From positions 1,395 to 33,684 of the forward strand of contig JAFEEB010000071.1 in the NCBI GenBank assembly GCA_018241325.1: 32,290 bases of DNA, given 5' to 3'. This document shows positions 2,489 through 27,577 of this stretch, piece by piece (the stretch's first letter is position 1; each line of letters starts with the position of its first letter). Made by a program: the position numbers and the translations under genes. Below the pieces are notes generated by a model that ran no database searches, was not told the origin of the DNA, and saw only the letters and a list, made by a program, of their open reading frames with translations. Source of the stretch: Pseudomonadota bacterium (GTDB lineage Bacteria > Pseudomonadota > Gammaproteobacteria > Burkholderiales > Burkholderiaceae_C).

Positions 2489-3258
2489 ACGCCATCCGCT
2501 CCTTCTTGCACCTGCTGTGGATGGGCCTGACGGTGATCCCGTATGCCACGGTGGTGGTGCTCATGGCGCCGTTTGCCAGCAAGGCCGCCGTGTACCGCGT
2601 GTGCCGCGCCTGGCTGGGGCTGACCATGCGCTCGGGCGGCTGGATCATGGGCATCCACAACCGCGTGAGCGGCATGCAGCACCTGCCCCAGGGCGATCGC
2701 GCGCCGGCCGTGCTGCTGGTCAAGCACCAGTCGGCCTGGGAGACTTTCTGCATGCCCCCGCTGATGCCGCGCCCGCTGGCCTACGTGTTCAAGCGCGAGC
2801 TCTTGCGCATTCCGTTCTTCGGCTGGGCCATCGGCCGCATGGACATGATCTACATCGACCGCGGCCAGCGCACCGAATCGCTGCGCAAGGTCATCGAGCA
2901 GGGCCAGCGCCTGCTGGGCGAGGGCGCGTGGGTCATCATGTTCCCCGAGGGCACGCGCATCCCGCGCGGCGAGAAGGGCGCCTACATGAGCAGCGGCGCG
3001 CGCCTGGCCATCGACTGCGGCGCGCCGGTGATCCCGATCGCCGTCACCTCGGCGCGCTGCTGGCCGCGCAAGGCCTTCGTCAAGAAGCCCGGCATCGTGG
3101 ACATCTCCATCGGCCCGCCGATTGCCACCACCGGGCGCAAGGCGCACGAGGTCATGCGCGAGGTCGAGACCTGGATCGAGACCGAGATGCGCCGCCTGGA
3201 CCCCGAGGCCTATCCCACGCCCGAAACCCCGCGCTCCACCGTGCGGCCCAGCCAGTAG
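2485..3258 (+). CDS. plsC: 1-acyl-sn-glycerol-3-phosphate acyltransferase (PlsC family)
   Basis: 257 residues; the ATG at 2485 overlaps the preceding stop (ATGA). It transfers a second acyl chain to lysophosphatidate at the inner membrane. Visible features: an N-terminal hydrophobic segment (about 5-30), the acyltransferase block KHQSAWETF (about 80-88), where the canonical H-x4-D reads H-x4-E, then FKRELLRIPFFGWAIG, the YIDRGQR block, FPEGTRIPRGE (about 152-162) and a late APVIPIAVTS block. The H-x4-E form is, as far as I know, a common beta-proteobacterial subclass and not a defect. The C-terminal tail is Pro/Thr-rich. It sits in the glyS operon, an arrangement common in Burkholderiales. 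Confidence 0.93.
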   Translation: MNAIRSFLHLLWMGLTVIPYATVVVLMAPFASKAAVYRVCRAWLGLTMRSGGWIMGIHNRVSGMQHLPQGDRAPAVLLVKHQSAWETFCMPPLMPRPLAYVFKRELLRIPFFGWAIGRMDMIYIDRGQRTESLRKVIEQGQRLLGEGAWVIMFPEGTRIPRGEKGAYMSSGARLAIDCGAPVIPIAVTSARCWPRKAFVKKPGIVDISIGPPIATTGRKAHEVMREVETWIETEMRRLDPEAYPTPETPRSTVRPSQ

Positions 3259-3271
3259 GGTGCGTGCCGTG

Positions 3272-4174
3272 ATGCAGCAGCTCTTGTTCGACTGGCTCGG
3301 CATCGGTGACACCGCTGCAAATACAAAGCCAAACAAGCCGGCAGCGCCCGTCCCACCGGCGCAAAGCGCTCCTGAAACAGAAGCGCTTTTGCTTGCGCCC
3401 CCGCTCGATCTGCGCCAGGCGCTGCCCCCCGCCACCTTCAGCCACCCGCAGGCCAGCCGCCACATCGTGCTGGGCGATGCCCACGTGGCCTACGCCTTTC
3501 GGCGCGGCGCGCGGCGCACCATCGGCCTGAGCGTGGGGCCCGAAGGCCTGACGGTGGCCGCGCCGCGCTGGACCCCGCTGGCCGAGGTGGAGGCCCTGCT
3601 GCGCCAAAAAAGCCGCTGGGTGCTGGACAAGCTGACGCAGTCCCGCGAGCGCCAGGCCGCCGAAACCCTGACGCGCATCGACTGGCGCGCGGGCGCCCCC
3701 GTGCCCTACCTGGGCCAGCCCCTGGCGCTGCAACTGGACCCGCGCCAGCGCCACGGGCGCGGCGGCGCAGGCGCGGTGCTGGAAGGCAGCACCCTGTGGC
3801 TGGGCCTGCCCCAGGACGCCGCCCCCGAGCGCCTGCGCGACACCACCCAGGCTTGGCTGATCGGCCAGGCGCGCCGCCTGTTCGCCGCGCGGCTGGACCA
3901 CTTTGCCCCGCAGCTGGGCGTGCGCTGGCAGCGCCTGACGCTCACGGCCGCGCGCACGCGCTGGGGCAGCGCCAGCGCCGACGGCTCGATCCGCCTGAAC
4001 TGGCGCCTGATCCACCTGAGCGAAGCGCTGATCGACTACGTGGTGGTGCACGAGCTGGCCCACCTGCGCGAGATGAACCACAGCGCGCGCTTTTGGCAGC
4101 ACGTGGGCGAGGTGCTGCCCGACTACGCCCAGCGGCGCGGCACGCTCAAGCACGAGCGCGTGCCGGCCTGGTAG
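3272..4174 (+). CDS. YgjP/SprT-like zinc metallopeptidase (WLM/DUF45, M48-type)
   Basis: 300 residues from the ATG at 3272, 13 bases after the plsC stop. The zinc-protease motif HELAHLREMNHSARFW (about residues 267-282) contains HExxH plus a downstream His, as in the YgjP family. Upstream, TAARTRWGSASADGSIRLNW is the family's conserved R-W-G-S block. The N-terminal 60 residues are Pro/Ala-rich and probably disordered. YgjP-like proteins are cytoplasmic, with poorly known substrates. An in-frame GTG a few codons upstream is also possible. It probably continues the operon. Family membership is confident; substrate unknown. Confidence 0.9.
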   Translation: MQQLLFDWLGIGDTAANTKPNKPAAPVPPAQSAPETEALLLAPPLDLRQALPPATFSHPQASRHIVLGDAHVAYAFRRGARRTIGLSVGPEGLTVAAPRWTPLAEVEALLRQKSRWVLDKLTQSRERQAAETLTRIDWRAGAPVPYLGQPLALQLDPRQRHGRGGAGAVLEGSTLWLGLPQDAAPERLRDTTQAWLIGQARRLFAARLDHFAPQLGVRWQRLTLTAARTRWGSASADGSIRLNWRLIHLSEALIDYVVVHELAHLREMNHSARFWQHVGEVLPDYAQRRGTLKHERVPAW

Positions 4175-4253
4175 TGCCGGTGCCGCGCCGGCGCGCGAAT
4201 TGCAGCGCAAGCCGCGGGATGCAGCGCACGCGCGGGCGGCCTACAGTGGCGCC

Positions 4254-5312
4254 ATGACCCCACCTGCCGCGCTCCCCATCCCCGCCGACCCGCGCTGGAC
4301 CGCCGTGCTGGCGCGCGACGCCCGCGCCGACGGCCGCTTTGTGTATGCCGTGCGCACCACCGGCGTGTGGTGCCACCCCAGCAGCCCCACGCGCCGCCCG
4401 CGCCCCGGCAACGTCGAGTTCTTCGACACCCCCGCCGCCGCCGAGGCCGCCGGCTACCGACCCAGCCGCCGCGCCGCGCCCGCGGGCGAGCATGCCGCGC
4501 GCATTGCGGCCGCCTGCCACCGCATCGAGGCCTGCGTGCAAGCCGGCGAGCCCGCGCCCGCGCTGGATGAACTGGCGCACGCCAGCGGCCTGAGCCCGTT
4601 TCACTTTCACCGCCTGTTCAAGGCCGCCACCGGCCTGACGCCCGCCGCCTGGGCGCGCGCACGCCGGGCCGACGCGCTGCGCCAGGCCCTGCCCCGCAGC
4701 GCCCGCGTGACGGACGCCGTGTACGACGCCGGCTTTGGCGCCCCCAGCCGCTTCTACGCCCAGGCCGACGCGGCCCTGGGCATGGCCCCGGGCGCCTTTC
4801 GCGCCGGCGGGCGCGGGCAGAGCATCCGCTTTGCCGTCGGCCAGTGCACGCTGGGCGCCATCCTGGTGGCCGAAAGCGCGCGTGGCATTTGCGCCATTGC
4901 GCTGGGCGACGATGCGCAGGCGCTGGTGCGGCAGTTGCAGGACCAGTTTCCCAACGCGCAGTTGACGGGCGGCGATGCCGCCTTCGAGCAGCACGTGGCG
5001 CGCGTGATCGGCTTTGTCGAGCAACCCGGCTTGGGCCTGGACTTGCCGCTGGACGTGCGCGGCACCGCTTTTCAGCAGCGCGTGTGGCAGGCCTTGCGCG
5101 CCGTGCCCGCGGGGCAGACCGTGAGCTACGCCGAGATCGCCCAGCGCATCGGCCAGCCCCGCGCCGTGCGCGCCGTGGCGCAAGCCTGCGCCGCCAACGC
5201 GCTGGCGGTGGCCATCCCCTGCCACCGCGTGGTGCGCAGCGACGGGGCGCTGTCGGGCTACCGCTGGGGCGTGGAGCGCAAGGCCGCGTTGCTGGTGCGC
5301 GAGCAGGCCTGA
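4254..5312 (+). CDS. ada: Ada-type O6-alkylguanine-DNA methyltransferase with degenerate N-terminal zinc domain
   Basis: 352 residues with the Ada layout: N-terminal Ada_Zn_binding region (about 12-78), AraC-type HTH (about 85-180, with LDELAHASGLSPFHFHRLFKAATG), then the methyltransferase domain (about 190-350) with the active-site motif IPCHRVVRSDGALSGYRWG. The C-terminal domain looks fully active for O6-methylguanine repair. In the N-terminal domain only Cys40 (VWCHPSS) survives of the four zinc cysteines: the second reads Ser44, and the usual PCKRC pair reads P-S-R-R-A (Ser71, Ala74). By Ada knowledge the zinc-Cys4 site is required for methylphosphotriester repair, which switches Ada into an activator, so the sensing half is probably lost. 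The ATG at 4254 was chosen because the reading matches the family from about residue 12. Confidence 0.93.
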   Translation: MTPPAALPIPADPRWTAVLARDARADGRFVYAVRTTGVWCHPSSPTRRPRPGNVEFFDTPAAAEAAGYRPSRRAAPAGEHAARIAAACHRIEACVQAGEPAPALDELAHASGLSPFHFHRLFKAATGLTPAAWARARRADALRQALPRSARVTDAVYDAGFGAPSRFYAQADAALGMAPGAFRAGGRGQSIRFAVGQCTLGAILVAESARGICAIALGDDAQALVRQLQDQFPNAQLTGGDAAFEQHVARVIGFVEQPGLGLDLPLDVRGTAFQQRVWQALRAVPAGQTVSYAEIAQRIGQPRAVRAVAQACAANALAVAIPCHRVVRSDGALSGYRWGVERKAALLVREQA

Positions 5313-5383
5313 GACGCGTCGGTAACCGGCCGCCTGAGGTCTTGCTTACACACCTCCTTGGGGCGGGGGCTGGGATGAGGTCT

Positions 5384-6213
5384 TGCTCCCTCGCCCCTTT
5401 GGGGAGGGTTGGGGTGAAGGGCTGCGGTGCTGGATGTGTTTTCTGTGGTTCGATGGGTGGCTGACCCTGCGAGCTCCCGCTGGCCGGGATGCGCGCCCGG
5501 CGGCGCACCTACTTTTCTTTGCGTCGCCAAAGAAGAGTAGGCAAAAGAAAGGCGACCCCACTGGCCGTGTCCCTTCGCTGCGCTGCGGGCAGCCTGCGAT
5601 GCTCGCGCCTGGGGCGGTGCTGCGGAACTCGCTGCGTTCGCTGCGCTCTCTTCGCTCAAACAGCCGCAGCAAGTCAGTCCACGAAGCATGGGCATGCTGC
5701 GCTGCCCATGCCCGCCCCACGCCCTGCGCTTCTCGGCACGGCCAGAGGGGAGTTCAACTCCAACCCGGGCCATCGCTGCGCTCGGCCCCAGTGTTGGCTT
5801 TTGCCCGGGCCGAGCGCAGCGATGGCCCGTGTGGGTTTTCCACCCCCTTGAGGCTGCGCCTGCGGCGCGGCGCTTGCGGGGTGGCGCGTGCAGCGCAGCA
5901 TGCACGCGCTTCGTCAACTGGCTCGCGGGGGTTGTTTGAGCGAAGAGAGCGCAGCGAACGCAGCGAGTTCCACCGCGCACCCCGCAAGCGTTGCGGCGCA
6001 GGTCTGCCCCGAAGCGAAGCGCAGGGGTCGCAGACGTGGGGGCGCTTTCTTTTGCCTCCTTTTCTTGTGCGTACAAGAAAAGGAGGTGCGCCGCCGGGCG
6101 CACATCCCGGCCAGCGGGGGCTTGCAGAGTCAGCGATGAAGCAAACGACGTCAACGATTCCAACGCCAGAAAGCCCCTCACCCCAACCCTCTTCCCACAG
6201 GGGCAAGGGAGAA
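5384..6213. repeat. Large imperfect palindrome of about 830 bp filling a gene-free interval
   Basis: The 5313-6465 interval has no convincing gene; its open frames exist on both strands only because of repeat composition. The two halves mirror each other around about 5798. The core arms 5767-5788 and 5807-5828 are 22 bases each and perfectly complementary. Further out, the stretch 5461-5560 (GCTGGCCGGGATG..., CCCGGCGGCGCACCT) matches the complement of 6030-6135, and CTCGCTGCGTTCGCTGCGCT (5628-5647) recurs inverted near 5947-5966. Outermost, a CCCCAACCCTC-type box lies inverted at about 5384-5421 and direct at about 6175-6213. Similar sequences recur in intergenic regions of Comamonadaceae, so this is a genomic repeat. 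Its function is unknown. Confidence 0.85.
6055..6086. repeat. Perfect 14-bp inverted repeat with 4-base loop
   Basis: CCTCCTTTTCTTGT at 6055-6068 is followed by GCGT and its exact complement at 6073-6086. It lies inside the right half of the large palindrome. A decayed counterpart (ACTTTTCTTTGCGTCGCCAAAGAAGAGT) sits at about 5511-5538 in the left half. RNA from either strand would form a very stable hairpin, but there is no U-run typical of a terminator. Confidence 0.9.
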
Positions 6214-6465
6214 AGAAAGGCGCACATTGCCGGTGGCGGACGGATTGCTCGCCGCAGCTTCTTGCCCCATGGTCTCCTCGAGCCTGGGCAATAGACGTGC
6301 GACCTCTCGGCACATGCCCCAACGCCCTCGAATCATCTGTGCAAAAAAGTCACTGGTTTCGCAGCAAATAACCCATTTGTCACCCAAAACAAATCGAATA
6401 CAGTGTGCTTTTTTGAACGCCGTCCGTGCCGGGCGGCGCGTTTGCATTCTTCAAGCGGATTCGAC

Positions 6466-8685
6466 ATGACCCAACGCATCAACGTGGGCGACCTGCAGGT
6501 CGCCGCCGAGCTCCACGACTTCGTCAACCGCGAGGTGCTGCCTGACGTCGGCATCGACTCCGGCCGCTTCTGGAAGGGCTTTTCGTCCATCGTCACCGAG
6601 CTGGCGCCCAAGAACGCCGCCCTGCTGGCCGAGCGCGATCGCCTGCAGACCGAGCTGGACACCTGGCACCGCGCCAACCCCGGCCCGATCAAGGACATGC
6701 GCGCCTACCGCGCCTTTCTGGAAGGCATCGGCTACCTGGTGCCGGTGCCGGCCAAGGTCAAGGTCAGCACCCGCAAGGTCGATGCCGAGCTGGCGCGCCA
6801 GGCCGGCCCGCAGCTGGTGGTGCCCATCACCAATGCGCGCTACGCGCTGAACGCCGCCAACGCGCGCTGGGGCAGCCTGTACGACGCGCTGTACGGCACC
6901 GACGTGATCGCCGAAGCCAAGGGCCTGGAGCGCGGCAAGGGCTACAACGCCCGGCGCGGCGCCAAGGTGGTCGAGTGGGCGCGCCACGTGCTGGACCGCA
7001 CCGCGCCGCTCAAGAAGGGCTCGCACGTCGATTCGGTGGGCTACCAGATCAAGGACGGCAAGCTGGTCGTCAAGCTGGCCGGCGGCAAGCGCGGCAAGCT
7101 GCTGGACAAGGACCAGCTGGTGGGCTATCAGGGCGATGCCAAGGCGCCCACGAGCATCCTGCTGGTGCACAACGGCCTGCACCTGGACATCCGCATCGAC
7201 CCCGCCTCGCCCATCGGCCGGGCCGACCCGGCTGGCGTGGCCGACCTGGTGGTCGAGGCCGCCGTCTCCACCATCCTCGACCTGGAAGACTCGGTGGCCT
7301 GCGTGGACGCCCAGGACAAGGTGCTGGCCTATCGCAACTGGCTGGGCATCCTGCGCGGCACGCTGACCGAGAGCTTCGACAAGGGCGGCCACACCGTCAC
7401 GCGCGGCCTGAACCCCGACCGCCTCTACACCAAGCCGGCCGGCAAGGGCAGCGTCAAGTTGCACGGGCGCTCGCTGATGTTCCTGCGCAACGTGGGCCAT
7501 CTGATGACCAACCCGGCCATCCTGTACCGCGCGGCCGACGGCAGCGCGCGCGAGATTCCCGAGGGCATCCTGGACGCGGTCGTCACCACCGCCATCGCCC
7601 TGCACGACCTGCAAGGCAAGGGCGCGGACGGCATTCGCAACTCACGCACCGGCAGCGTCTACATCGTCAAGCCCAAGATGCACGGCCCCGCCGAGGTGGC
7701 CTTTGCCAGCGAGCTGTTCACGCGGGTCGAAGAGCTGCTGGGCCTGGAAGGCAGCACCGTCAAGCTGGGCATCATGGACGAGGAGCGCCGCACCAGCGTC
7801 AACCTCAAGGCCTGCATCGCCGCCGCCAAGAGCCGCGTGGCCTTCATCAACACCGGCTTCCTGGACCGCACCGGCGACGAGATGCACAGCTGCATGCAGG
7901 CCGGCCCCGTGTACCGCAAGGGCGACATGAAGACCAGCGCCTGGATCGCCGCGTATGAGCGCAACAACGTGCTGGTGGGCCTGGACTGCGGCCTGCGTGG
8001 CAAGGCGCAGATCGGCAAGGGCATGTGGGCCATGCCCGACCTGATGGCCGCCATGCTCGAGCAGAAGATCGGCCACCCCAAGGCCGGCGCCAACACCGCC
8101 TGGGTGCCCAGCCCCACCGGCGCCACGTTGCACGCCATGCACTACCACCAGGTGCTGGTCAGCGACGTGCAAAAAACCATGGAGGCCAAGCTGGCCAAGG
8201 CCGACGTCCGCGCGCTGCGCGACGAACTGCTGAGCGACCTGCTCACCATTCCGGTGGTGCCCGAGGCGAAGTGGAGCGCCGACGAGCGCCAGCAGGAGCT
8301 GGACAACAACTGCCAGGGCATTCTGGGCTACGTGGTGCGCTGGGTGGACCAGGGCGTGGGCTGCTCCAAGGTGCCCGACATCCACGGCGTGGGCCTGATG
8401 GAAGACCGCGCCACGCTGCGCATCAGCAGCCAGCACATCGCCAACTGGCTGCTGCACGGCGTCGTGAGTGAAGGCCAGGTGCGCGCCACGCTGCAGCGCA
8501 TGGCCGCCCTGGTGGACCAGCAAAACGCCGGCGACCCGCTGTACCGCCCCATGCACGGCCACTTCGACACTTCCGCCGCCTTCCAGGCCGCCAGCGACCT
8601 GATCTTCAAGGGCATCGAGCAGCCCAGCGGCTACACCGAGCCGCTGCTGCACGCCTGGCGGCAGAAGGTCAAGGCGGGGGCTTGA
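6466..8685 (+). CDS. glcB: Malate synthase G
   Basis: 739 residues, close to the usual ~720-730 of malate synthase G. It condenses glyoxylate with acetyl-CoA to malate in the cytoplasm (glyoxylate bypass or glycolate use). Conserved segments visible: [11 protein letters not shown] (metal-binding Glu/Asp region), [69 protein letters not shown] and the late [20 protein letters not shown] catalytic segment. The ATG at 6466 ([13 protein letters not shown]) starts where family members start; the frame is open 63 bases further upstream but that extension is not family-like. It stands alone behind the large palindrome and converges with the CsgG-like locus, with a 24-base gap to that locus's last gene. 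Confidence 0.97.
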
Positions 8686-8709
8686 GCGGGCCGGGTCGCG
8701 CCGTGGGCC

Positions 8710-9318
8710 TCACCGCCGGCGGTCCCAGATCATGCCGGCGGTCACCGCTTCGCTGACGTCGGTGTTGACCAGGCGCGCGCCGGTCAGGTTGGCGCGGCTC
8801 AGGTTGGCACCGGTCAGGTCGACGTTGGTGAGCACGGCGCCGCGCAGGTCGGCGCCTTCCAGGTTGGCGTGACTCAGATCGACGTTGGTGAAGCTGCGGC
8901 CGGCCAGGTTGGCACCTGCGAAGTTGCGGCCCGACAGGTCGGCATTGACGAAGTCGCGACCGCCCGCGCCAGCGCGGCCGCGCGGCGCGGCGGTGCCGGT
9001 GCTGCTGCTGGTGGTGACGGTGGTCGTCGTGCCGTTGCCGTCGATGGTGACGGTGGAGCTCTGGTCACCCTTGCCGCGCGAGGTGATGGTGCGCGAGCCG
9101 ATGTTGGTCTCGGCCACGGCGCCTGGGCCCGAGGCCGAATTGATGACCTTGCCGTTCAGGCGGACGGTCGAGCCTTCGCCCGCGTCGGCGCGCACCGAGG
9201 TGCCGTTGCCCAGGTCGATGCGGCTGGTCTGCGCCAGCGCCAGCGCGCCTGCGGACAGCAGGGCCAGCGCGGCCAGATGGTGCAGCCGGGGGCGAATGGG
9301 GGTGCGAAGGGGTTTCAT
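8710..9318 (-). CDS. Secreted hybrid protein: fibre-type repeat plus pentapeptide-repeat beta-helix
   Basis: 202 residues. I chose the ATG at 9318 because AAAGGAG lies seven bases upstream and it begins a signal peptide (about 1-29, cleavage near ALA-Q30); the frame is open 54 bases further upstream. Residues 50-75 carry one copy of the locus repeat (NGKVINSASGPGAVAETNIG). A Ser/Thr/Gly linker follows (about 76-120, TTTTVTTSSSTG). Residues about 122-190 are pentapeptide repeats of the A(D/N)LxG type (FVNADLSGRNFAGANLAG...), predicted to fold as a right-handed quadrilateral beta-helix. It is the last gene of the CsgG-like locus, 43 bases after the Sel1 gene. A surface anchor or nucleator role is inference. 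Confidence 0.85.
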   Translation of the reverse strand: MKPLRTPIRPRLHHLAALALLSAGALALAQTSRIDLGNGTSVRADAGEGSTVRLNGKVINSASGPGAVAETNIGSRTITSRGKGDQSSTVTIDGNGTTTTVTTSSSTGTAAPRGRAGAGGRDFVNADLSGRNFAGANLAGRSFTNVDLSHANLEGADLRGAVLTNVDLTGANLSRANLTGARLVNTDVSEAVTAGMIWDRRR

Positions 9319-9361
9319 GGTCGGGCTCCTTTGAACGTTGAAGGCGCGCAGGGCGGCCTTG

Positions 9362-10435
9362 CTACTTGCCAATGGTCGGGGTATTCAGGGGTTTGATCCA
9401 GTCGGCCAGCGGATCGCTCACGCGCGTGGGCCTGCTCAGGGCCGGCGCGCGGCGCGCCTGGCCCCAGTCGGAGGCGACGCTGATGCGCCCCGCCAGCTGT
9501 TCCATCCACGCGCCGCTGACATCGCTGCCGCTGCTGGACTGGCTGAAGATCAGGCCCAGGATCTCGCGGGCGCGGGAAGAGCCGGCGTCGGCCGCACGCT
9601 GGTACAGCGTGATGGCGCGCGCGTAGTCGCGTGGCACGCCGTCGCCGCGGTGGTAGCGCTGGGCCAGCGCCAGCAGCGCGTCGGCGTCACCCTCGTTGGC
9701 CAGCGTGCGCAGACGCGCCACGGCGTCGCCGGACGGCTGCTCGCGGCGCTCCAGCCGGGTCAGGTTCTGGCGCGCCACATCCAGCCCGGCTTGCGCGGCG
9801 CGCCGGTACAGATCGATGGCGGCGCCGGTGTTGCCGGCGAGTTCGCGCTCCACGCCCAGGTCGTTGAGCGCCATGACGTCGCCCTCGCGCGCCGCCTGCT
9901 CCAGCAGCGCCGTGGCCTGTTGCGCCGCGCGCGGGCCCGTGCTGCGGCGCTCGACCACGCTGCGCAGGTACAGCGCGCGCGTCAGGCCCAGCGCCGACGC
10001 GCGCTCCAGCCACTGGCGCGCCAGCGGCATGTTGCTGGTGCCGCCGCCGCGCGTGGCCAGAAAATAGCCCAGGGCCGCCATGCCGCGCGCGTCGCCTGCC
10101 TGCGCCGCCTGCTGCCACCAGCGCTGCGTCAGCGCCGCGGCCTGCGGCTCGCTCGGATGGCGGTAGTGGTAGTAGCCCAGCGCCACCATGGCGCCCACGT
10201 CGCCGGCTTGCGCGCGCTGCGTCAGCTCCGCCGGCGCGCCGCCTTCGTCGGCGCTGGGCTCGGGTATCACGATGGAGCGGGCCGGGGGTGCGTCCGCGTC
10301 TGGCGCCGAAGGCTCGGGCGCGGCGGCCCGCGGCGGCAACACGATGGCGGCGGCGGCCGGGCGCAGCCAGCCGGCCAGCAGCAGCGTCGCAGCGACGCGA
10401 CGGCGCCGCGGGGCGATCGGGGCGCCCACGGGCAT
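9362..10435 (-). CDS. Periplasmic Sel1-repeat protein coupled to the CsgG-like gene
   Basis: 357 residues. Its ATG (10435-10433) shares one base with the TGA of the CsgG-like gene (TGATG), a classic translational-coupling overlap. The N-terminus is an Arg-rich, then hydrophobic signal segment (about 1-30, ending PAAAA), followed by a Pro/Ala-rich stretch. From about residue 60 to 310 there are five to six Sel1/TPR-like repeats, for example GDVGAMVALGYYHY, GDARGMAALGYFLA and GDADALLALAQRYHRGDGV with DYARAITLYQRAADAG. Sel1 proteins scaffold protein-protein contacts. The coupling suggests it works at fixed ratio with the channel, perhaps as a periplasmic chaperone or assembly platform; that role is inferred. 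Confidence 0.88.
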   Translation of the reverse strand: MPVGAPIAPRRRRVAATLLLAGWLRPAAAAIVLPPRAAAPEPSAPDADAPPARSIVIPEPSADEGGAPAELTQRAQAGDVGAMVALGYYHYRHPSEPQAAALTQRWWQQAAQAGDARGMAALGYFLATRGGGTSNMPLARQWLERASALGLTRALYLRSVVERRSTGPRAAQQATALLEQAAREGDVMALNDLGVERELAGNTGAAIDLYRRAAQAGLDVARQNLTRLERREQPSGDAVARLRTLANEGDADALLALAQRYHRGDGVPRDYARAITLYQRAADAGSSRAREILGLIFSQSSSGSDVSGAWMEQLAGRISVASDWGQARRAPALSRPTRVSDPLADWIKPLNTPTIGK

Positions 10436-12090
10436 CACGATCTCGTGCCTTTCGCGCCGCTGCTCGCGGCGCTTGCCGGAGCGTTCACCTGCCAAGACAG
10501 CGCCTGGCTGGCCACCACCAGGCCGCTGCCTTCCAGGGCCTGCCGCACGGCGCCGATGTCGGCGTAGTCCGCCAGCGGCGAGAGCTTGGCCGCGGTCAGG
10601 GCCTCGGGCACCTTGCCCACCAGGGGCTGCTGCGTGCTGGCGCACCAAGCCTGCTCGGCGCCGGGCTTGGCCGCCTGGATGAGGAAGCTGTCGGCCTGGC
10701 CGATGTCCGGCACCAGCAGCGCGGTCTTGCCCTGCACCGCGGGTGCGGTCTGCTGCGGATTGGGGTAGATCTGCGTGACGGCGCCTCCGGCATCCTGGTA
10801 GTAGCAGTACAGATAGCCGGTGCGCGCCGACGCAATGCGCAGCACGATGTTGTCGCCCACGTTCAGCGCCGGATCGCGGTGGCCGACGATGCCCATCGCG
10901 ATGCTGCGCGCGCCGGGCTCGTTGTCGGGCAGGCCGGCGGGGCGCGGTGCTAGGTCGGCGCCCGGCGCGCGCGCCTGCTGCGGTTCGAGCCGGTCGGCCG
11001 CCGACATGCCCACGTAGCCGCTCATCAGCCGGGCATAGGTCTCGAAGCTGACGGTGCCGATGGGGGTGAGGTCCATGGCCGACTGGTAGCCTGCCAGCGC
11101 CCGGCGCAGCGCGGGGCTGTCCTGGCCGTCGACCGCGCCGCCCCACAGGCCTTGCGAGGCCAGCACGCGCTGCGCCAGCGTGATGCGCTCGGCCGGCGCG
11201 AGGTCGTCGTACCACGTACGCAACTGGCGCTTGAACTCGGGGTGGTTCTGCTCGTAGTCCACGCAGTTCCAATACGGCAGCTTGGCCCACTTGCCGACCA
11301 GCTCGATGGTGGCCAGGTCCACCAGCAGCCGCACGGCCGCGCCGGCGCCCTGGTTGTTGTCGGCCGCGCGCTCGAACTGCACGCCCAGTTGGTAGATGTG
11401 ACGCGGCAGGCCGGTGGCGCGTCCGCCCAGCTCGATGGCCTTGCCGCCCGAGGCCACCACCAGCTCGTTGGCCGAATCGACGCCGGGCAGAAGCGTGCGC
11501 GAGTTCATGTCGCCCAGGTGCAGGTCCATGCCCACCATGGTGCCCAGCACGTCCCAACTGAAGGCCGCGTCGGTGTTGGCCGTGGACACGCCGATGTTGC
11601 TGCGCTTGCTCACCACCGTCTTGTCGCCGAAGCTGATGGCGCCGGAGACATAGATCTGCGGCTTGCGCAACTCGAGCTGGCCGTTGTTGAGCAGCAAGGT
11701 GGTGAGCGTCTGTACCGTGTCCTGCTTGAGCACGTCGATCTCGTAGTCGACCACCCGAAACGCCTGACTGGTGCGCGACATGCGCGAGAGCGCGGTGATG
11801 ATCATCTCCTTGGTGCCGGTGGCGAACAGCCCCGATGGGTCGGGGATGGTCTTGACGGCGACCAGGGTGCTGGGCACCTGCTCGGCGCTCAGCATGCGGT
11901 CCATGCAGGCCAGCGCTTCGCGCATGGCCGAGGCGGACTTGGTTGGCGTCACCAGCGGCGTCTGTTCGGTCGGCGCCAGGTCGATGACATCCTTGTGCTC
12001 CACCACCGTGGGCTTGATGGCACAGGCAGACAGCAGAGTGCACAGCGCGAGCAGCGCCGAGATTCTTCGATTTGTTGTTGTGGGGAGCAT
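10435..12090 (-). CDS. CsgG/HfaB-like outer-membrane lipoprotein with peptidoglycan-binding and DUF4384-like domains
   Basis: 551 residues. A lipobox LSAC (20-23) follows a short hydrophobic signal. Residues about 50-280 resemble CsgG/HfaB, the nonameric curli or holdfast-anchor export channel: a VAVKTIPDPSGLF start, LSRMSRTSQAFRVVDYE, QIYVSGAISFGDKT and SWDVLGTMVGMDLHLGD blocks. Residues about 300-358 look like a PG_binding_1 domain (AQRVLASQGLWGGAVDG, ALAGYQS, TVSFETYARLM). Residues about 408-495 look like DUF4384 (LNVGDNIVLRIASARTGYLY, YYQDAGGAVTQIYPNP). E. coli CsgG (about 277 residues) has neither extra domain. Upstream lie three small secreted proteins, two of them repeat proteins, likely its cargo. 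No strong Shine-Dalgarno is visible before this ATG, and a U-tailed hairpin lies 28 bases upstream. Confidence 0.87.
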   Translation of the reverse strand: MLPTTTNRRISALLALCTLLSACAIKPTVVEHKDVIDLAPTEQTPLVTPTKSASAMREALACMDRMLSAEQVPSTLVAVKTIPDPSGLFATGTKEMIITALSRMSRTSQAFRVVDYEIDVLKQDTVQTLTTLLLNNGQLELRKPQIYVSGAISFGDKTVVSKRSNIGVSTANTDAAFSWDVLGTMVGMDLHLGDMNSRTLLPGVDSANELVVASGGKAIELGGRATGLPRHIYQLGVQFERAADNNQGAGAAVRLLVDLATIELVGKWAKLPYWNCVDYEQNHPEFKRQLRTWYDDLAPAERITLAQRVLASQGLWGGAVDGQDSPALRRALAGYQSAMDLTPIGTVSFETYARLMSGYVGMSAADRLEPQQARAPGADLAPRPAGLPDNEPGARSIAMGIVGHRDPALNVGDNIVLRIASARTGYLYCYYQDAGGAVTQIYPNPQQTAPAVQGKTALLVPDIGQADSFLIQAAKPGAEQAWCASTQQPLVGKVPEALTAAKLSPLADYADIGAVRQALEGSGLVVASQALSWQVNAPASAASSGAKGTRS

Positions 12091-12117
12091 GCGGGGTGGT
12101 CGGAGCGGAGCCCGAGG

Positions 12118-12149
12118 AAAAAAGCACGGCCGATGCGTGCGGCCGCGCG
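12118..12149 (-). terminator. Rho-independent terminator or attenuator before the CsgG-like gene
   Basis: On the - strand a nine-pair stem (GCGCGGCCG with CGGCCGTGC, one G-U pair) and a seven-base loop (12134-12140) are followed directly by seven T residues (12124-12118). It starts 11 bases after the stop of the 113-residue protein and ends 28 bases before the CsgG-like ATG. It should stop most transcription coming from the small subunit genes while letting some pass into the channel gene. Confidence 0.85.
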
Positions 12150-12159
12150 GAGGTTCTTG

Positions 12160-12501
12160 TTATTTGCAGACGTTGACCACAGGCCCCTTGACCACGATGA
12201 CCTGGTCGTTGTTGCCGGCGCCAAAGCGGTTGCCGATGCGTTCGGTGCCGCTGGTGACCGGAGGGGTGCCGATGTTGGTGACACAGCCACCCTGGCCGCC
12301 CGGCGTGGTGACGCGCTGGCGCTCCACCGTCGCGCGGGCTGCGGGTTCCTCGATCTGGCTGCGCGCCAGCACGCTGGTGACCTTGTTGCGTGAGGCCGGA
12401 TCCATGCCGGCGCGCTCGGCCGGCGGCTTTTGCGCCGCGCCGGCTGCAGCGCACAAGGCCAGACACCCTGCTGCCGCGAGAAGTTGAAGGGCGTTTGCCA
12501 T
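12160..12501 (-). CDS. Small secreted protein with swapped repeat halves (candidate fibre partner)
   Basis: 113 residues; GGGAGG lies five bases before the ATG. A signal peptide spans about 1-23 (ends AGAA); the cysteines in it do not form a proper lipobox. The middle (about 25-65) is polar with no known motif. The C-terminal half contains the two halves of the locus repeat in reverse order: GGQGGCVTNIGT (68-79) then DQVIVVKGPVVNVCK (99-113), compared with QVISINGPVVN followed by NIGS in the 128-residue protein. The only mature cysteines, Cys73 and Cys112, lie within these halves and could be joined by a disulfide. It could cap or pair with an incomplete repeat; that is inference. Confidence 0.8.
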   Translation of the reverse strand: MANALQLLAAAGCLALCAAAGAAQKPPAERAGMDPASRNKVTSVLARSQIEEPAARATVERQRVTTPGGQGGCVTNIGTPPVTSGTERIGNRFGAGNNDQVIVVKGPVVNVCK

Positions 12502-12531
12502 GTGGGCCTCCCGATTGATTGCAGAAAGAAC

Positions 12532-12563
12532 GCACGCGCCCGACGCGGACGCCGGGCGCGTGC
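12532..12563 (-). terminator. Strong hairpin between subunit genes
   Basis: A perfect 11-bp stem (12532-12542 with 12553-12563, GCACGCGCCCG) with a ten-base loop, 15 bases after the stop of the 101-residue repeat protein. On the - strand it is followed by GTTCTTTCTG, only moderately T-rich, so it may be a weak terminator or a 3' stabilising hairpin that enriches the upstream subunit mRNA. Confidence 0.65.
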
Positions 12564-12577
12564 TGCCGGACGCGCCC

Positions 12578-12883
12578 TTACTTGGTGCCGTCGTTGGAGG
12601 CCAGGTTCTGCTCGGCCTTGGTCAGGCCGCCGTTGGCCATGTTGACCACGGCGCCGTTCTTCACGTCGACGCTTTGCTGGTTGTTGCCGCCGATCTTGAC
12701 GTTGCCCTTGTTGGACGCCAGGTTCTGCTTGGCGGTGGCCAGGCCGCCGTTGGCCATGTTGACCACGGCGCCGTTTTCGACCTTGACGGACTGCTTGTTG
12801 TTGCCGCCAATCTTGATGTCGGCCTGTGCGCCGAGCGTGTAGGCCGCGAGCGTGCACGCGATCAGCAGGGAAGATTTTTTCAT
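12578..12883 (-). CDS. Small secreted protein with two 39-residue tandem repeats (candidate fibre subunit)
   Basis: 101 residues; AAAGGA lies upstream of the ATG at good spacing. A signal peptide (about 1-21, ending GAQA) is followed almost entirely by two tandem repeats of 39 residues, starting at Lys24 and Lys63, which I count as 30/39 identical. Each reads KIGGNN-x-QSV-x-V-x-NGAVVNMANGG then A-x-QNLASN. The DNA copies are also close to identical. The Asn/Gln/Gly/Val-rich strand-turn-strand pattern resembles, in style only, curlin repeats. The next gene but one encodes a CsgG-like channel. I propose this as the main or nucleating subunit of an extracellular fibre; no homology to CsgA is claimed. 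Confidence 0.85.
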   Translation of the reverse strand: MKKSSLLIACTLAAYTLGAQADIKIGGNNKQSVKVENGAVVNMANGGLATAKQNLASNKGNVKIGGNNQQSVDVKNGAVVNMANGGLTKAEQNLASNDGTK

Positions 12884-12981
12884 GATGGTTCCTTTCGGTT
12901 GTCAATGCACAATCGCCCTCCCCATGAGGGCACGCATTCCCGGTCCCGGTGCGGGGCTGGAAATTCCTGACGCCCACGCCG

Positions 12982-13368
12982 TCAGCGCGAGCTGCCGATG
13001 TTCATGACGCTGGCGCGACCGCCAAACGCCTGGTTGACCACCGGCCCGTTGATCGAGATCACCTGCGAACCGGAGGAGCCCGCGGGCGTCTTGGACGCAA
13101 TGTTCAATTCGGCATAGCCGCCAGCGCCGGCTGCGTTGATCACCGCGCCCTTGACGTCGGTGATCTGCCGGTTGCCGGGTGGCACGGGAATGCCCTTGGT
13201 CGACGAGATGTTCATGACGGCGGCGCCGCCGGTCACGGCACTGTTGACGATGCCGCCGCTGGCCCGCACGACCTGCTGGTTGTCGGCCAGCGCCCATGGC
13301 GCGCAAAGGCCGATGGCGGCCAGCGCGGCGAGACGGAAAAATGCGTGAACGTTGAGGGTCGGTTTCAT
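12982..13368 (-). CDS. Small secreted protein with three 26-residue repeats (candidate fibre subunit)
   Basis: 128 residues; signal peptide about 1-28 (ends PWALA). The mature part holds three 26-residue repeats at 31-56, 67-92 and 101-126, spaced 36 and 34 apart. Pattern: x-Q-(V/I)-x3-x-G-x-(V/I)-(V/I)-N-x-A, then GG-x-A-x-(V/L)-(M/L)-N-I-x-S. Examples are GGIVNSAVTGGAAVMNISS and GPVVNQAFGGRASVMNIGS. It is the first gene of the locus. No good Shine-Dalgarno is obvious before the ATG. The pattern is shared with the 101-residue protein and the pentapeptide hybrid, which ties the locus together. Confidence 0.85.
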   Translation of the reverse strand: MKPTLNVHAFFRLAALAAIGLCAPWALADNQQVVRASGGIVNSAVTGGAAVMNISSTKGIPVPPGNRQITDVKGAVINAAGAGGYAELNIASKTPAGSSGSQVISINGPVVNQAFGGRASVMNIGSSR

Positions 13369-23953: not shown

Positions 23954-24223
23954 ATGGACATCGAGTTCGACCCGGTCAAGGACGCAGCCAACGTCGCCAA
24001 ACACGGCGTTTCCATGGCCTTGGCCGAGCGCATTTGCTGGCCCGATGTCCTGTGCATGCCCGACAGCCGGTGCGACTATGGCGAGTTGCGAGAAATCGGC
24101 TTTGCCGTGATCGACGAGCGGTTGTACGTGGTGGTGTTCGTGCAGCGCGGCGAGATGATGCGCATCATCAGCCTGCGCAAGGCCAACCGACGTGAGGTGA
24201 AGCTGTATGACGAAGCGATCTAA
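23954..24223 (+). CDS. brnT: BrnT-family ribonuclease toxin
   Basis: 89 residues, usual BrnT length. The N-terminus reads FDPVKDAANVAKHGVSMALAE (the usual WDPxKAxxNxxKHGVSF pattern), then a strand-rich centre, and the C-terminus MRIISLRKANRREVKLYDEAI matches the conserved RIISARKAxxxExxxYE block. BrnT is a RelE-fold RNase that inhibits translation. It overlaps the antitoxin gene by 17 bases. There is no clear Shine-Dalgarno; see the promoter entry. Confidence 0.92.
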   Translation: MDIEFDPVKDAANVAKHGVSMALAERICWPDVLCMPDSRCDYGELREIGFAVIDERLYVVVFVQRGEMMRIISLRKANRREVKLYDEAI

Positions 24224-24503
24224 AAATTTGGGCCTGCTGCTGCCCACGGCCGACGAGGACGCCGCCATTGCCGCCGGCCTGGCGCAGGACGCCGACACAA
24301 TGGAGATCACCCGTGCTGACCTGCCGCGCCTGGCGCCGCTGCGCCGGCCCGGCCGGCCACCCGTCGCACACCCCAAGGTTCCCATGACGATGCGCGTGGA
24401 CGCCGACGTGCTGGCTGCCATCAAGGCCAGTGGCAGCGGCTGGCAAACCCGCGTCAACCGCGTGCTGCGCGAGGCCGTGCGCCGGGGCAAGCTGGCCGCG
24501 TGA
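24207..24503 (+). CDS. brnA: BrnA-family antitoxin
   Basis: 98 residues, starting 17 bases inside brnT. The C-terminal part has a ribbon-helix-helix: PMTMRVDADVLAAIKASGSGWQTRVNRVLREAV, matching the (V)xLRxDxDVLxxFKxxGxGYQTRINxxLR pattern of BrnA. The N-terminal half (residues 5-50) should wrap the toxin. It neutralises BrnT and represses the operon, probably via the TGTACGTACA palindrome. Confidence 0.92.
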   Translation: MTKRSKNLGLLLPTADEDAAIAAGLAQDADTMEITRADLPRLAPLRRPGRPPVAHPKVPMTMRVDADVLAAIKASGSGWQTRVNRVLREAVRRGKLAA

Positions 24504-25446: not shown

Positions 25447-25941
25447 ATGAAACAAATGAAGAAACTGCAACAAGGCTTCACCCTGATCGAACTGATGATC
25501 GTGGTGGCCATCATCGGCATTTTGGCTGCTGTCGCGCTGCCGGCGTACAAGGACTACACGGTGCGCGCCAAGGTGTCAGAAATCGTTCTGGCGGCTTCTT
25601 CCTGCCGCACCAGCATCACCGAAACCATCCAAAGCACGACCAAGTCCACGTTGCCGGCTGCTGGCGCCTGGGGCTGCGAGGTCGCCACTGGCGCTGGCAC
25701 AAAATATGTCGATGTCATCGGCACGGACAGCGCCGGGGTCGTCACGGTGACGTCCACCAGCGCCGCCGACTTGCCCACTGATGCCCGGGCCAAAACCATC
25801 ACGCTCACGCCGTATGCGACCGCCTCAACGGCGATTGCTAATACGAACGTCGGCGTCCTCATCCACCATTGGGTGTGTGCTCCTGGCCCCGCCGCTACCG
25901 CCATGCCCGAAAAGTACCTGCCCGGCTCTTGCCGCGGTTGA
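25447..25941 (+). CDS. pilA: Type IV major pilin
   Basis: 164 residues. The prepilin signal is [10 protein letters not shown] followed by [20 protein letters not shown], with PilD cleavage after Gly10 and the essential Glu5 of the mature protein. I chose the ATG at 25447 because GAGGAA lies at proper spacing; the ATG at 25441 is too close to it. Cysteines in WVCAPG and PGSCRG near the C-terminus form the expected D-region disulfide; two more (SSCRTS, WGCEVA) may form a second. It is preceded by a sigma-54 promoter and followed by a terminator, so expressed as a single gene. The pilus supports twitching, adhesion and DNA uptake. Confidence 0.96.
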
Positions 25942-26083: not shown

Positions 26084-27577
26084 ATGTCCAAGTGGACTGG
26101 TGCTGACGCCATGTACCTGGCCATCCTGTTCCTCACGTTTGTTTTTTGTGCCACATGGCCGCACACGCTGCGGCAGTTGGCGGCGACATCGACCATCGTG
26201 GTAGCTGCCTGCCTCTTGACCGTTTTTTATGCCATTGCCGACCACTTCACGGGCGAAGGTGTCACGCTGGCGGTGCTGATGCACCTGCGCTACGCGGAAC
26301 AAAACCAGCTTGGCGTGGCGCGCTTTCCGTGGGCAATGGCGGCGGTCGCGGCTACTGTGCTGCTGCTCGCAGCCTTCTTCTTCCTGTGCTGGCGCTTGAT
26401 GCTCAAGCGTCGCCTGACGGGTATCCGACGGCCCTTCCTGGGCTGGCTGGTTCTGCCACTTGGCCTGGTGGCGCTGGCCGCCAACCCGGCAACGCGCGAT
26501 TTGTGGTCACTCAGGGAAGCCACTAGCGTTGTGGACGACACACTTACCGCCGAGATGCAATGGCGGGTCGGCGCACCGCGAGAAAAACTCAAATCGTTTG
26601 TTTACATTTACCTGGAAAGCCTGGAGCGCACGTTCCTGGATCAAAACGAATTTCCGAGTGTTGCCCCTGGGCTGGCGGCATTGGAAGCCAGCCACTTGTC
26701 CATTCACGGCATCCAAACCGCGCCGTTCATGAATTGGACGGTGGCCGGCATGACGGCCAGCCAGTGCGGCGTGCCTTACGAACCCTTGAAAGTAGCGACC
26801 CCAGGGGGCGCGTACATCCCCGGCGCGTCGTGCATTGGCAACTTGCTTGCCAACCACGGATACAACCTGAGCTATGTTGGCGGTGCCGACCTTGGGTTTG
26901 GCGGGAAAGGAAAGCTCTACCAAGTGCACGGATTTTCCAGCGTGATCGGTTCGGATGATTTTGATAGCCCATCCTCCGATCGCAATCTGTGGGGTGTCAA
27001 CGACGATGTTTTGATCCGGCGAGTCAAGGACGAATTCATCAAGCTCAAAAATCACGGCGGTCCTTTTGGCCTAGTGACCTTGACCTTGACCACGCACCCA
27101 CCGGATGGATTTCCAAGCGCCGGCTGCGCGGCGCAGCAACCGTTCGACAATCCGATACTGAATGCGGTGCACTGTTCCGATCGGCAGATTGTTGAGCTGA
27201 TTGAATGGCTGCAACGCAACGCGCCGGAAGATCTGTTGATTTTTGTCGGCTCCGACCATTATCAAGTTGCCGGCGCTGCGCACGATTTACTCAATCAGGC
27301 GCCTCGTCGCGAAAATCTCTGGTTCGTCATCGGGGACGGCGCTGGCGTCATCGACCGGCCTGCCACCATGGTCGATGTGGCACCCACGTTTGCACACCTG
27401 CTTGGGTTTGACGCGCACGCGATTGGACTGGGGCGGAATCTGTTGCTGGACGAACCGACCATGGTTGAAAAATACGGATATGGATCGTTCATCGGCATGC
27501 TGCCCGGATGGACATTGAAATTATGGAAAGAAATTAATTCCATGAGCATCGTTATGGATGCCAAGAGTATTGATTGA
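26084..27577 (+). CDS. OpgB/MdoB-like phosphoglycerol transferase, alkaline-phosphatase superfamily
   Basis: 497 residues: three to four N-terminal helices (about 9-25, 32-52, 83-105 and 116-135), then a periplasmic hydrolase domain. The catalytic region FVYIYLESLERTFLDQNEFP and NWTVAGMTASQCGVP match OpgB's ESLERTYFD and DYTIAGMVASQCG, with the nucleophilic Thr in N-W-T. Later blocks TLTTHPPDGFPS, CSDRQIVELIEWL and IFVGSDHYQ supply metal ligands. OpgB moves phosphoglycerol from phosphatidylglycerol to periplasmic glucans. Its place between pilA and a TfpZ-type accessory gene suggests the acceptor may be pilin (inference). The DNA is visibly less GC-rich than its neighbours, consistent with transfer. 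The start is uncertain: no clear Shine-Dalgarno precedes 26084, and 26111 is an alternative. Confidence 0.82.
   Translation: MSKWTGADAMYLAILFLTFVFCATWPHTLRQLAATSTIVVAACLLTVFYAIADHFTGEGVTLAVLMHLRYAEQNQLGVARFPWAMAAVAATVLLLAAFFFLCWRLMLKRRLTGIRRPFLGWLVLPLGLVALAANPATRDLWSLREATSVVDDTLTAEMQWRVGAPREKLKSFVYIYLESLERTFLDQNEFPSVAPGLAALEASHLSIHGIQTAPFMNWTVAGMTASQCGVPYEPLKVATPGGAYIPGASCIGNLLANHGYNLSYVGGADLGFGGKGKLYQVHGFSSVIGSDDFDSPSSDRNLWGVNDDVLIRRVKDEFIKLKNHGGPFGLVTLTLTTHPPDGFPSAGCAAQQPFDNPILNAVHCSDRQIVELIEWLQRNAPEDLLIFVGSDHYQVAGAAHDLLNQAPRRENLWFVIGDGAGVIDRPATMVDVAPTFAHLLGFDAHAIGLGRNLLLDEPTMVEKYGYGSFIGMLPGWTLKLWKEINSMSIVMDAKSID

Follow-up and report, generated by a model that had tools for sequence, protein, structure and literature searches.

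The window analysed here, 32,290 nucleotides long, covers positions 1,395 to 33,684 of contig JAFEEB010000071.1 (GenBank assembly GCA_018241325.1) from a Pseudomonadota bacterium placed in the Burkholderiaceae_C, order Burkholderiales. Its minus strand carries six genes encoding three small secreted proteins (c1, c2 and c3), a lipoprotein with a predicted CsgG fold (the channel), a Sel1-repeat protein and a pentapeptide-repeat hybrid. An initial annotation had read this group as a curli-like export system in which a CsgG/HfaB-like channel serves repeat-protein cargo, and all six same-strand genes are present in the window DNA in the order it gave. Coordinates are window positions throughout, and signal peptides and Sec-type N-termini were judged by eye.

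8710-13368, minus strand: whole operon, six same-strand genes with intergenic gaps of at most 98 bases
12982-13368, minus strand: c1, open reading frame for a 128-residue secreted protein with diverged repeat copies
12578-12883, minus strand: c2, 101-residue secreted protein with two 39-residue repeats; proposed main exported subunit
12160-12501, minus strand: c3, 113-residue secreted protein with one phase-shifted repeat and two cysteines; proposed cap, nucleator or gate
10435-12090, minus strand: channel, 551-residue lipoprotein with CsgG fold (predicted), peptidoglycan-binding domain and DUF4384
11254-11940, minus strand: channel residues 51-279, CsgG-fold domain, the range aligned to 7brm_A by predicted structure
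11026-11190, minus strand: channel residues 301-355, PG_binding_1 (Pfam PF01471, E 1.7e-5)
10627-10866, minus strand: channel residues 409-488, DUF4384 (Pfam PF14326, E 2.3e-12)
9362-10435, minus strand: Sel1-repeat protein (Pfam PF08238), translationally coupled to the channel by TGATG
8710-9318, minus strand: pentapeptide hybrid, 202-residue secreted protein, repeat-like at about residues 42-95 and with pentapeptide repeats (Pfam Pentapeptide) at about 123-191

The overlap of the channel stop codon with the ATG of the Sel1 gene and the lipobox LLSAC, which ends at Cys23 of the channel, had both been claimed earlier and can be read directly in the DNA. Matches above cut-off in Pfam and NCBIfam were limited, for the six proteins, to Sel1, Pentapeptide (two models), PG_binding_1 and DUF4384.

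When one genome was taken per species, the scan retrieved 113 channel loci, and the best 80 of these were analysed; they come from Comamonas, Acidovorax, Polaromonas, Hydrogenophaga, Ottowia, Variovorax, Limnohabitans, Lysobacter and other genera. The ten nearest loci (61-68% identity; five Comamonas, four Acidovorax and one Ottowia beijingensis) all keep the order c1-c2-c3-channel-Sel1-hybrid, while the flanks differ between genera. With all ten in agreement, the operon is more than a chance arrangement. Directly upstream of the channel, a c3 profile matches in the window and in 78 of the 80 loci, 73 of which had served to train that profile; the two loci lacking a match (L086 and L115) are missing their upstream DNA. 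A Sel1-like gene lies downstream of the channel in 71 of the 77 loci with enough DNA.

The same linkage was seen on the scale of genomes. Among 200 genomes of the same family, a close channel (E<1e-80), c3 and a repeat protein were all found in an identical set of 24 genomes. The close channel occupies 26 places in these genomes and c3 likewise 26, with c3 always upstream at a distance of 33-264 bases (26 of 26 places). Neither c3 nor the repeat protein was found at E<=1e-5 in the other 176 family genomes, 18 of which contain weaker channel matches (1e-46 or worse). These searches scored up to 7 candidates per genome for the channel and up to 19-20 for c3 and the repeat protein, and the absences are a first look. 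The two profiles, A6 for c3 and A9 for the repeat family, were built from selected members, 26 of about 72 and 35 of about 73 recognised sequences; because their rows came partly from the searched genomes, the c3 and repeat positives are partly circular, while the absences are not. A class-wide search of 369 genomes gave six matches including the window's own genome and says little about spread, at most three candidates having been scored per genome. Co-occurrence of the small genes with the channel, which the initial annotation had proposed to check, is thus found in 10 of 10 loci and 24 of 24 genomes. At the level of sequence comparison, these results show that the six genes are a conserved operon.

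Profile matches and a predicted structure show the channel to be a lipoprotein combining a CsgG-fold domain, a peptidoglycan-binding domain and DUF4384. Structure prediction, proposed earlier as a check on the channel domain, matches residues 51-279 to CsgG (7brm_A). This structural match spans 201 residues, compared with 119-134 for PelC and FlgT, which are parts of other machines. PelC and FlgT have a related core fold, so the protein could instead form a CsgG-like ring on peptidoglycan as part of a periplasmic scaffold, with the repeat proteins staying in the periplasm in a structural or stress role. We consider this quite unlikely: the match to CsgG is clearly the stronger one and covers a larger part of the domain, and the repeat cargo always occurs beside a close channel.

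Of the 81 channel loci, 70 passed the lipobox filter; three had no pattern, three ran off the contig and five had a wrong short frame. The channel alignment (A4) holds 67 of the 81, with 11 having failed the start, lipobox or length filter and three with other start codons omitted; the lipobox cysteine is invariant in this alignment, whose rows had been pre-filtered for the lipobox pattern. The only Pfam CsgG match in the window's genome, L067, was rejected; its hhalign alignment with the channel family runs only through the peptidoglycan-binding domain. L067 (G000:C11:33000-47000, positions 5706-7333) is a different lipoprotein with CsgG and PG_binding_1 domains beside a BON-domain gene, and no repeat cargo was seen there.

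The channels fall into two subtypes. Type B (14 rows, including the window) and type A (54 rows) separate in the channel tree, with support of 93/91 for the type B branch in the full tree and a long-branch warning that includes L102; the type B rows had been picked from gene layout before the tree was built. Type A cargo mostly has 3-5 repeats and usually a CxxC near the C-terminus (46 of the 57 proteins outside the type B-like set), whereas cysteine is absent from type B cargo (0 of 16 proteins), which mostly has two repeats. A divergent LuxR-type response regulator often accompanies type A: it was found at 49 of the 71 loci having 3 kb upstream, at none of the 15 type B-like loci among them, and is missing at 7 others too. 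The c1 protein and the pentapeptide hybrid belong to the type B core group.

Both types occur in the window's genome, where the type A locus (L033; G000:C93:30000-46500, positions 6189-10595) encodes a 262-residue repeat protein, c3, the channel and a downstream gene, with a divergent 260-residue regulator-like gene. Ottowia beijingensis (L082, L124), Acidovorax sp. A1169 (L079, L094) and Variovorax sp. PCZ-1 (L084, L138) also carry both. Coexistence of the types within single genomes therefore points to an old duplication or exchange, and the presence of type B in Lysobacter suggests transfer between orders.

Profile comparisons show that the small proteins share a repeat of about 39 residues. 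The initial annotation had described two copies in c2 and three in c1. The c2 copies are clear, self-comparison at an offset of 39 giving 30 identities when the best of 3000 shuffles gave 17. The threefold repeat of c1 can be seen by eye and is not significant in an ungapped test (859 of 3000 shuffles were as good), though the c1 family (A7) matches the c2 family by hhalign at E 4e-14. The N-terminal part of the hybrid aligns both with the c1 family (E 2e-8) and with A9, the repeat family (E 9e-8), in agreement with the earlier view that it carries the same repeat. In a set of 73 repeat proteins, successive repeat marks are spaced 38-41 residues apart in 134 of 149 cases. In a model of c2 (pLDDT 72.4) the strands recur with the repeat, and we read the predicted fold as a beta-solenoid.

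Fap fibres, with a repeat of similar length, use another outer-membrane protein, FapF. The excerpts of PMC3792158 give the FapB/FapC repeat length as about 39 residues, as in the window system, and the Fap motif; the core of the minimal Fap repeat X15GX4NX3GX6NX7 occurs in 1 of the 73 cargo proteins, as in shuffles (mean 1.3), and a Fap-type repeat was rejected. For curli, with the repeat motif taken from the excerpted text of PMC3521004, the core QXGX2N occurs in 2 of 73 repeat proteins, below the shuffled mean of 6.6, and a second curlin pattern from the literature, X6QX10Q, in 10 of 73, a count made with no shuffled control. The curlin repeat, at about 23 residues in the part of PMC10192328 consulted, is also shorter than the 38-41 residues of the window system. 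By sequence the cargo repeat is neither of the curlin nor of the Fap class.

The remaining small protein, c3, is related to the repeat in a different way. The core of c3 can be aligned with a single repeat if the phase is shifted, a QN.ASN half followed by a Q...V.N half, with a score of 18.9 and an hhalign probability of 41%, and none of 150 column-shuffled controls scored as high (best 14.6). The "swapped halves" described earlier are thus found as one repeat in shifted phase, in segments chosen by eye; unselected whole-profile comparisons of c3 with the repeat aligned only the signal peptide or 14 C-terminal columns (E 4e-4). In 72 of 72 c3 members, recognised by an end motif that includes one of the cysteines, exactly two cysteines follow residue 35; both are invariant in the 26-row alignment and lie at the two ends of the repeat. 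A disulfide between them would close a single repeat, which is why we propose a cap or nucleator. Because of the strict pairing with the channel and the two conserved cysteines, a role as nucleator, cap or gate is at least as likely as that of further cargo, the role first given to c3. The protein has no Pfam family, and a PDB sequence search with it gave nothing convincing.

The system resembles curli in its outer-membrane lipoprotein with a predicted CsgG fold, in the Asn-, Gln- and Gly-rich composition of its small secreted repeat proteins and, for type A relatives, in the frequent divergent LuxR-type regulator. It differs in lacking Pfam CsgG and Curlin_rpt matches, in the extra peptidoglycan-binding and DUF4384 domains of the channel and in having its own c3 protein. 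CsgE and CsgF (PF10627 and PF10614) were not found at E<=0.001 in the whole genome, which is 96% complete (the E. coli control was positive), nor was Curlin_rpt. The earlier statement that no CsgA, CsgB, CsgE or CsgF relative is recognisable therefore stands for cargo and genome alike.

The Caulobacter proteins HfaA, HfaB and HfaD offer a second comparison, as they also pair a CsgG-like lipoprotein with small secreted proteins, and HfaB is the nearest named model. Weak matches to the HfaB model of NCBIfam (NF037935) were obtained for type A relatives (E 0.018 and 2.8e-4) and for the distant loci L068 (1.5e-5) and L058 (4.6e-4), and an HfaB-like group, L068-L071, aligns with the window channel family over 316 columns (E 6e-19). 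These matches, together with the small size of the subunits and the mere two repeats of c2, fit a holdfast-like anchor in which small repeat proteins, brought to the surface by the channel, tether exopolysaccharide, as HfaA, HfaB and HfaD do. However, the best scanned relative reaches 24.4 bits against a cut-off of 300, the window channel has extra domains and no match to HfaB at E<=10, and the six window proteins gave no NCBIfam match to HfaA or HfaD, as far as that library holds such models (this was left unchecked, with no direct comparison). Such an anchor comes closest among the alternatives, the main difference being the job of the surface protein; we regard it as somewhat unlikely. The L068-L071 proteins, 380-400 residues long, stand in a conserved cluster with a secreted protein of about 1190 residues, a 140-150-residue protein and small proteins with a VNSVNI motif, and a PDB sequence search with this group gave nothing convincing.

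Among the other distant homologues of the channel, some have a TagF gene as neighbour and some have ECF-sigma-like genes (the latter by eye). TagF_N was confirmed at L058 only (E 1.3e-41), where a caspase-domain gene is also found; the assignments at L059 and L061 were made by eye. Adjacency to a TagF-like gene could mean that the lipoprotein and small proteins are an accessory module servicing the envelope complex of a type VI secretion system. This appears highly improbable: inspection by eye of the genes called in the window turned up no type VI secretion gene, and in the channel tree the TagF-adjacent relatives branch as a clade of their own. The L058 (4216-15057), L059 and L061 clusters contain TagF, a caspase-domain gene, small repeat proteins and OmpA-like genes, and the small repeat protein at L058 has QxGxxN three times.

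When neighbouring genes at five distant loci were scored with the c3 profile, the one immediately preceding the channel ranked 1, 2, 3, 4 and 7; one of these matches is clear (5e-8), two are near 0.01 and two are not significant. On plasmid AZO_p4 of the alphaproteobacterium Azospirillum lipoferum 4B (L155, positions 2909-6479), the neighbourhood of the channel homologue includes a c3-like protein (E 7e-4) and a 98-residue protein with two repeats. Annotated plasmid relatives are named only "DUF4384 domain-containing protein" or "hypothetical protein".

Several observations weigh against reading the operon as an export system for fibre-forming cargo. For the channel, none of 67 proteins matches Pfam CsgG (PF03783) at E<=0.01, the hhalign link to CsgG is borderline (E 0.002, probability 14%), pLDDT in the predicted membrane strands ranges from middling to low and an amphipathic beta-strand test found nothing distinctive. 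Pairwise alignment to E. coli CsgG, at 2.4 standard deviations above shuffles with one shuffle far above, gives no support, and a PDB sequence search with the channel gave nothing convincing. For the cargo, no solved structure similar to the c2 model was found, and the best hit of a PDB search with the repeat family (E 0.016) was an archaeal pilin matched largely in the signal-peptide region. The repeat profile aligned with E. coli CsgA through signal peptides only and with CsgB not at all, and the 11 Pfam families that 35 cargo proteins hit at E<=0.05 do not include Curlin_rpt (PF07012). Among relatives, no repeat cargo or c3-like protein was seen with the A. ramasamyi channel homologue, nor any cargo by eye at L060, L063, L065, L066 and L072.

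The system would act in the manner of Csg and Hfa while lacking the sequence features that define them, and the operon is probably a Csg/Hfa-like export system for repeat proteins. The earlier curli-like reading holds in part: two of the three checks named with it, on co-occurrence of the small genes with the channel and on the structural match to CsgG, came out in its favour, while export, pore assembly and fibre or coat formation are inferred. In the mechanism we propose, c1, c2 and the pentapeptide hybrid would enter the periplasm via Sec, and a lipoprotein ring, tethered to the wall by its peptidoglycan-binding domain, would pass them unfolded through the outer membrane. Outside, the cargo may fold into beta-solenoids and stack into a surface fibre or anchor layer. 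The c3 protein, as a disulfide-closed single repeat, could cap, nucleate or gate the polymer, while the Sel1 protein may be a periplasmic partner or chaperone and the hybrid a minor or terminal subunit. That the product is an amyloid-type fibre is a tentative suggestion, which we hold at somewhat below even odds.

Taken as a whole, this would be a third CsgG-fold export system, distinct from curli and the holdfast anchor, with a wall-tethered channel, a new beta-solenoid class of about 39 residues, a disulfide-closed c3 nucleator or cap and two old subtypes in Burkholderiales, Lysobacter and relatives, making a previously unknown surface fibre; we assign this full reading a probability of roughly 45%. 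The literature searched contained no description of the system, with most subscription papers and all bioRxiv preprints outside the search. Dueholm et al. (2012), in the excerpts of PMC3521004, count two betaproteobacterial curli systems, both in Burkholderiales, which may or may not include the window system; the profiles used there derive from Csg proteins.

Two terminator-like hairpins lie within the operon:

12532-12563, minus strand: terminator-like hairpin in the c2/c3 gap, 14-pair stem with T-rich tail
12124-12148, minus strand: terminator-like hairpin in the c3/channel gap, 9-pair stem with T run, inconsistently conserved

The operon region holds 6 terminator-like sites, compared with 3.4 (standard deviation 2.0) in shuffles. 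A loose pattern recovers the c2/c3 hairpin in 5 of 11 relatives, and it is weak evidence because only L087 has one of comparable strength. Upstream, the operon adjoins a dksA/traR zinc-finger gene, and downstream a convergent malate-synthase-like gene (named by eye); such a gene is also a neighbour at four of five Comamonas loci, but on the opposite side of the operon. Elsewhere in the window, two adjacent small genes with the look of a BrnT/BrnA toxin-antitoxin pair (23954-24503) and a type IV pilin-like gene (25447-25941) followed by a 488-residue gene (26111-27577) were noticed by eye.

Since neither channel nor cargo scores in Pfam as CsgG or curlin, curli surveys based on Csg profiles are expected to miss this system. 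The small set of parts, with two repeats, one cap and one channel, may be useful for studying subunit recognition and nucleation. If the system makes a surface fibre, environmental biofilms would gain a new class of polymer, and the channel would be a new CsgG-fold pore that carries its own tether to the cell wall.

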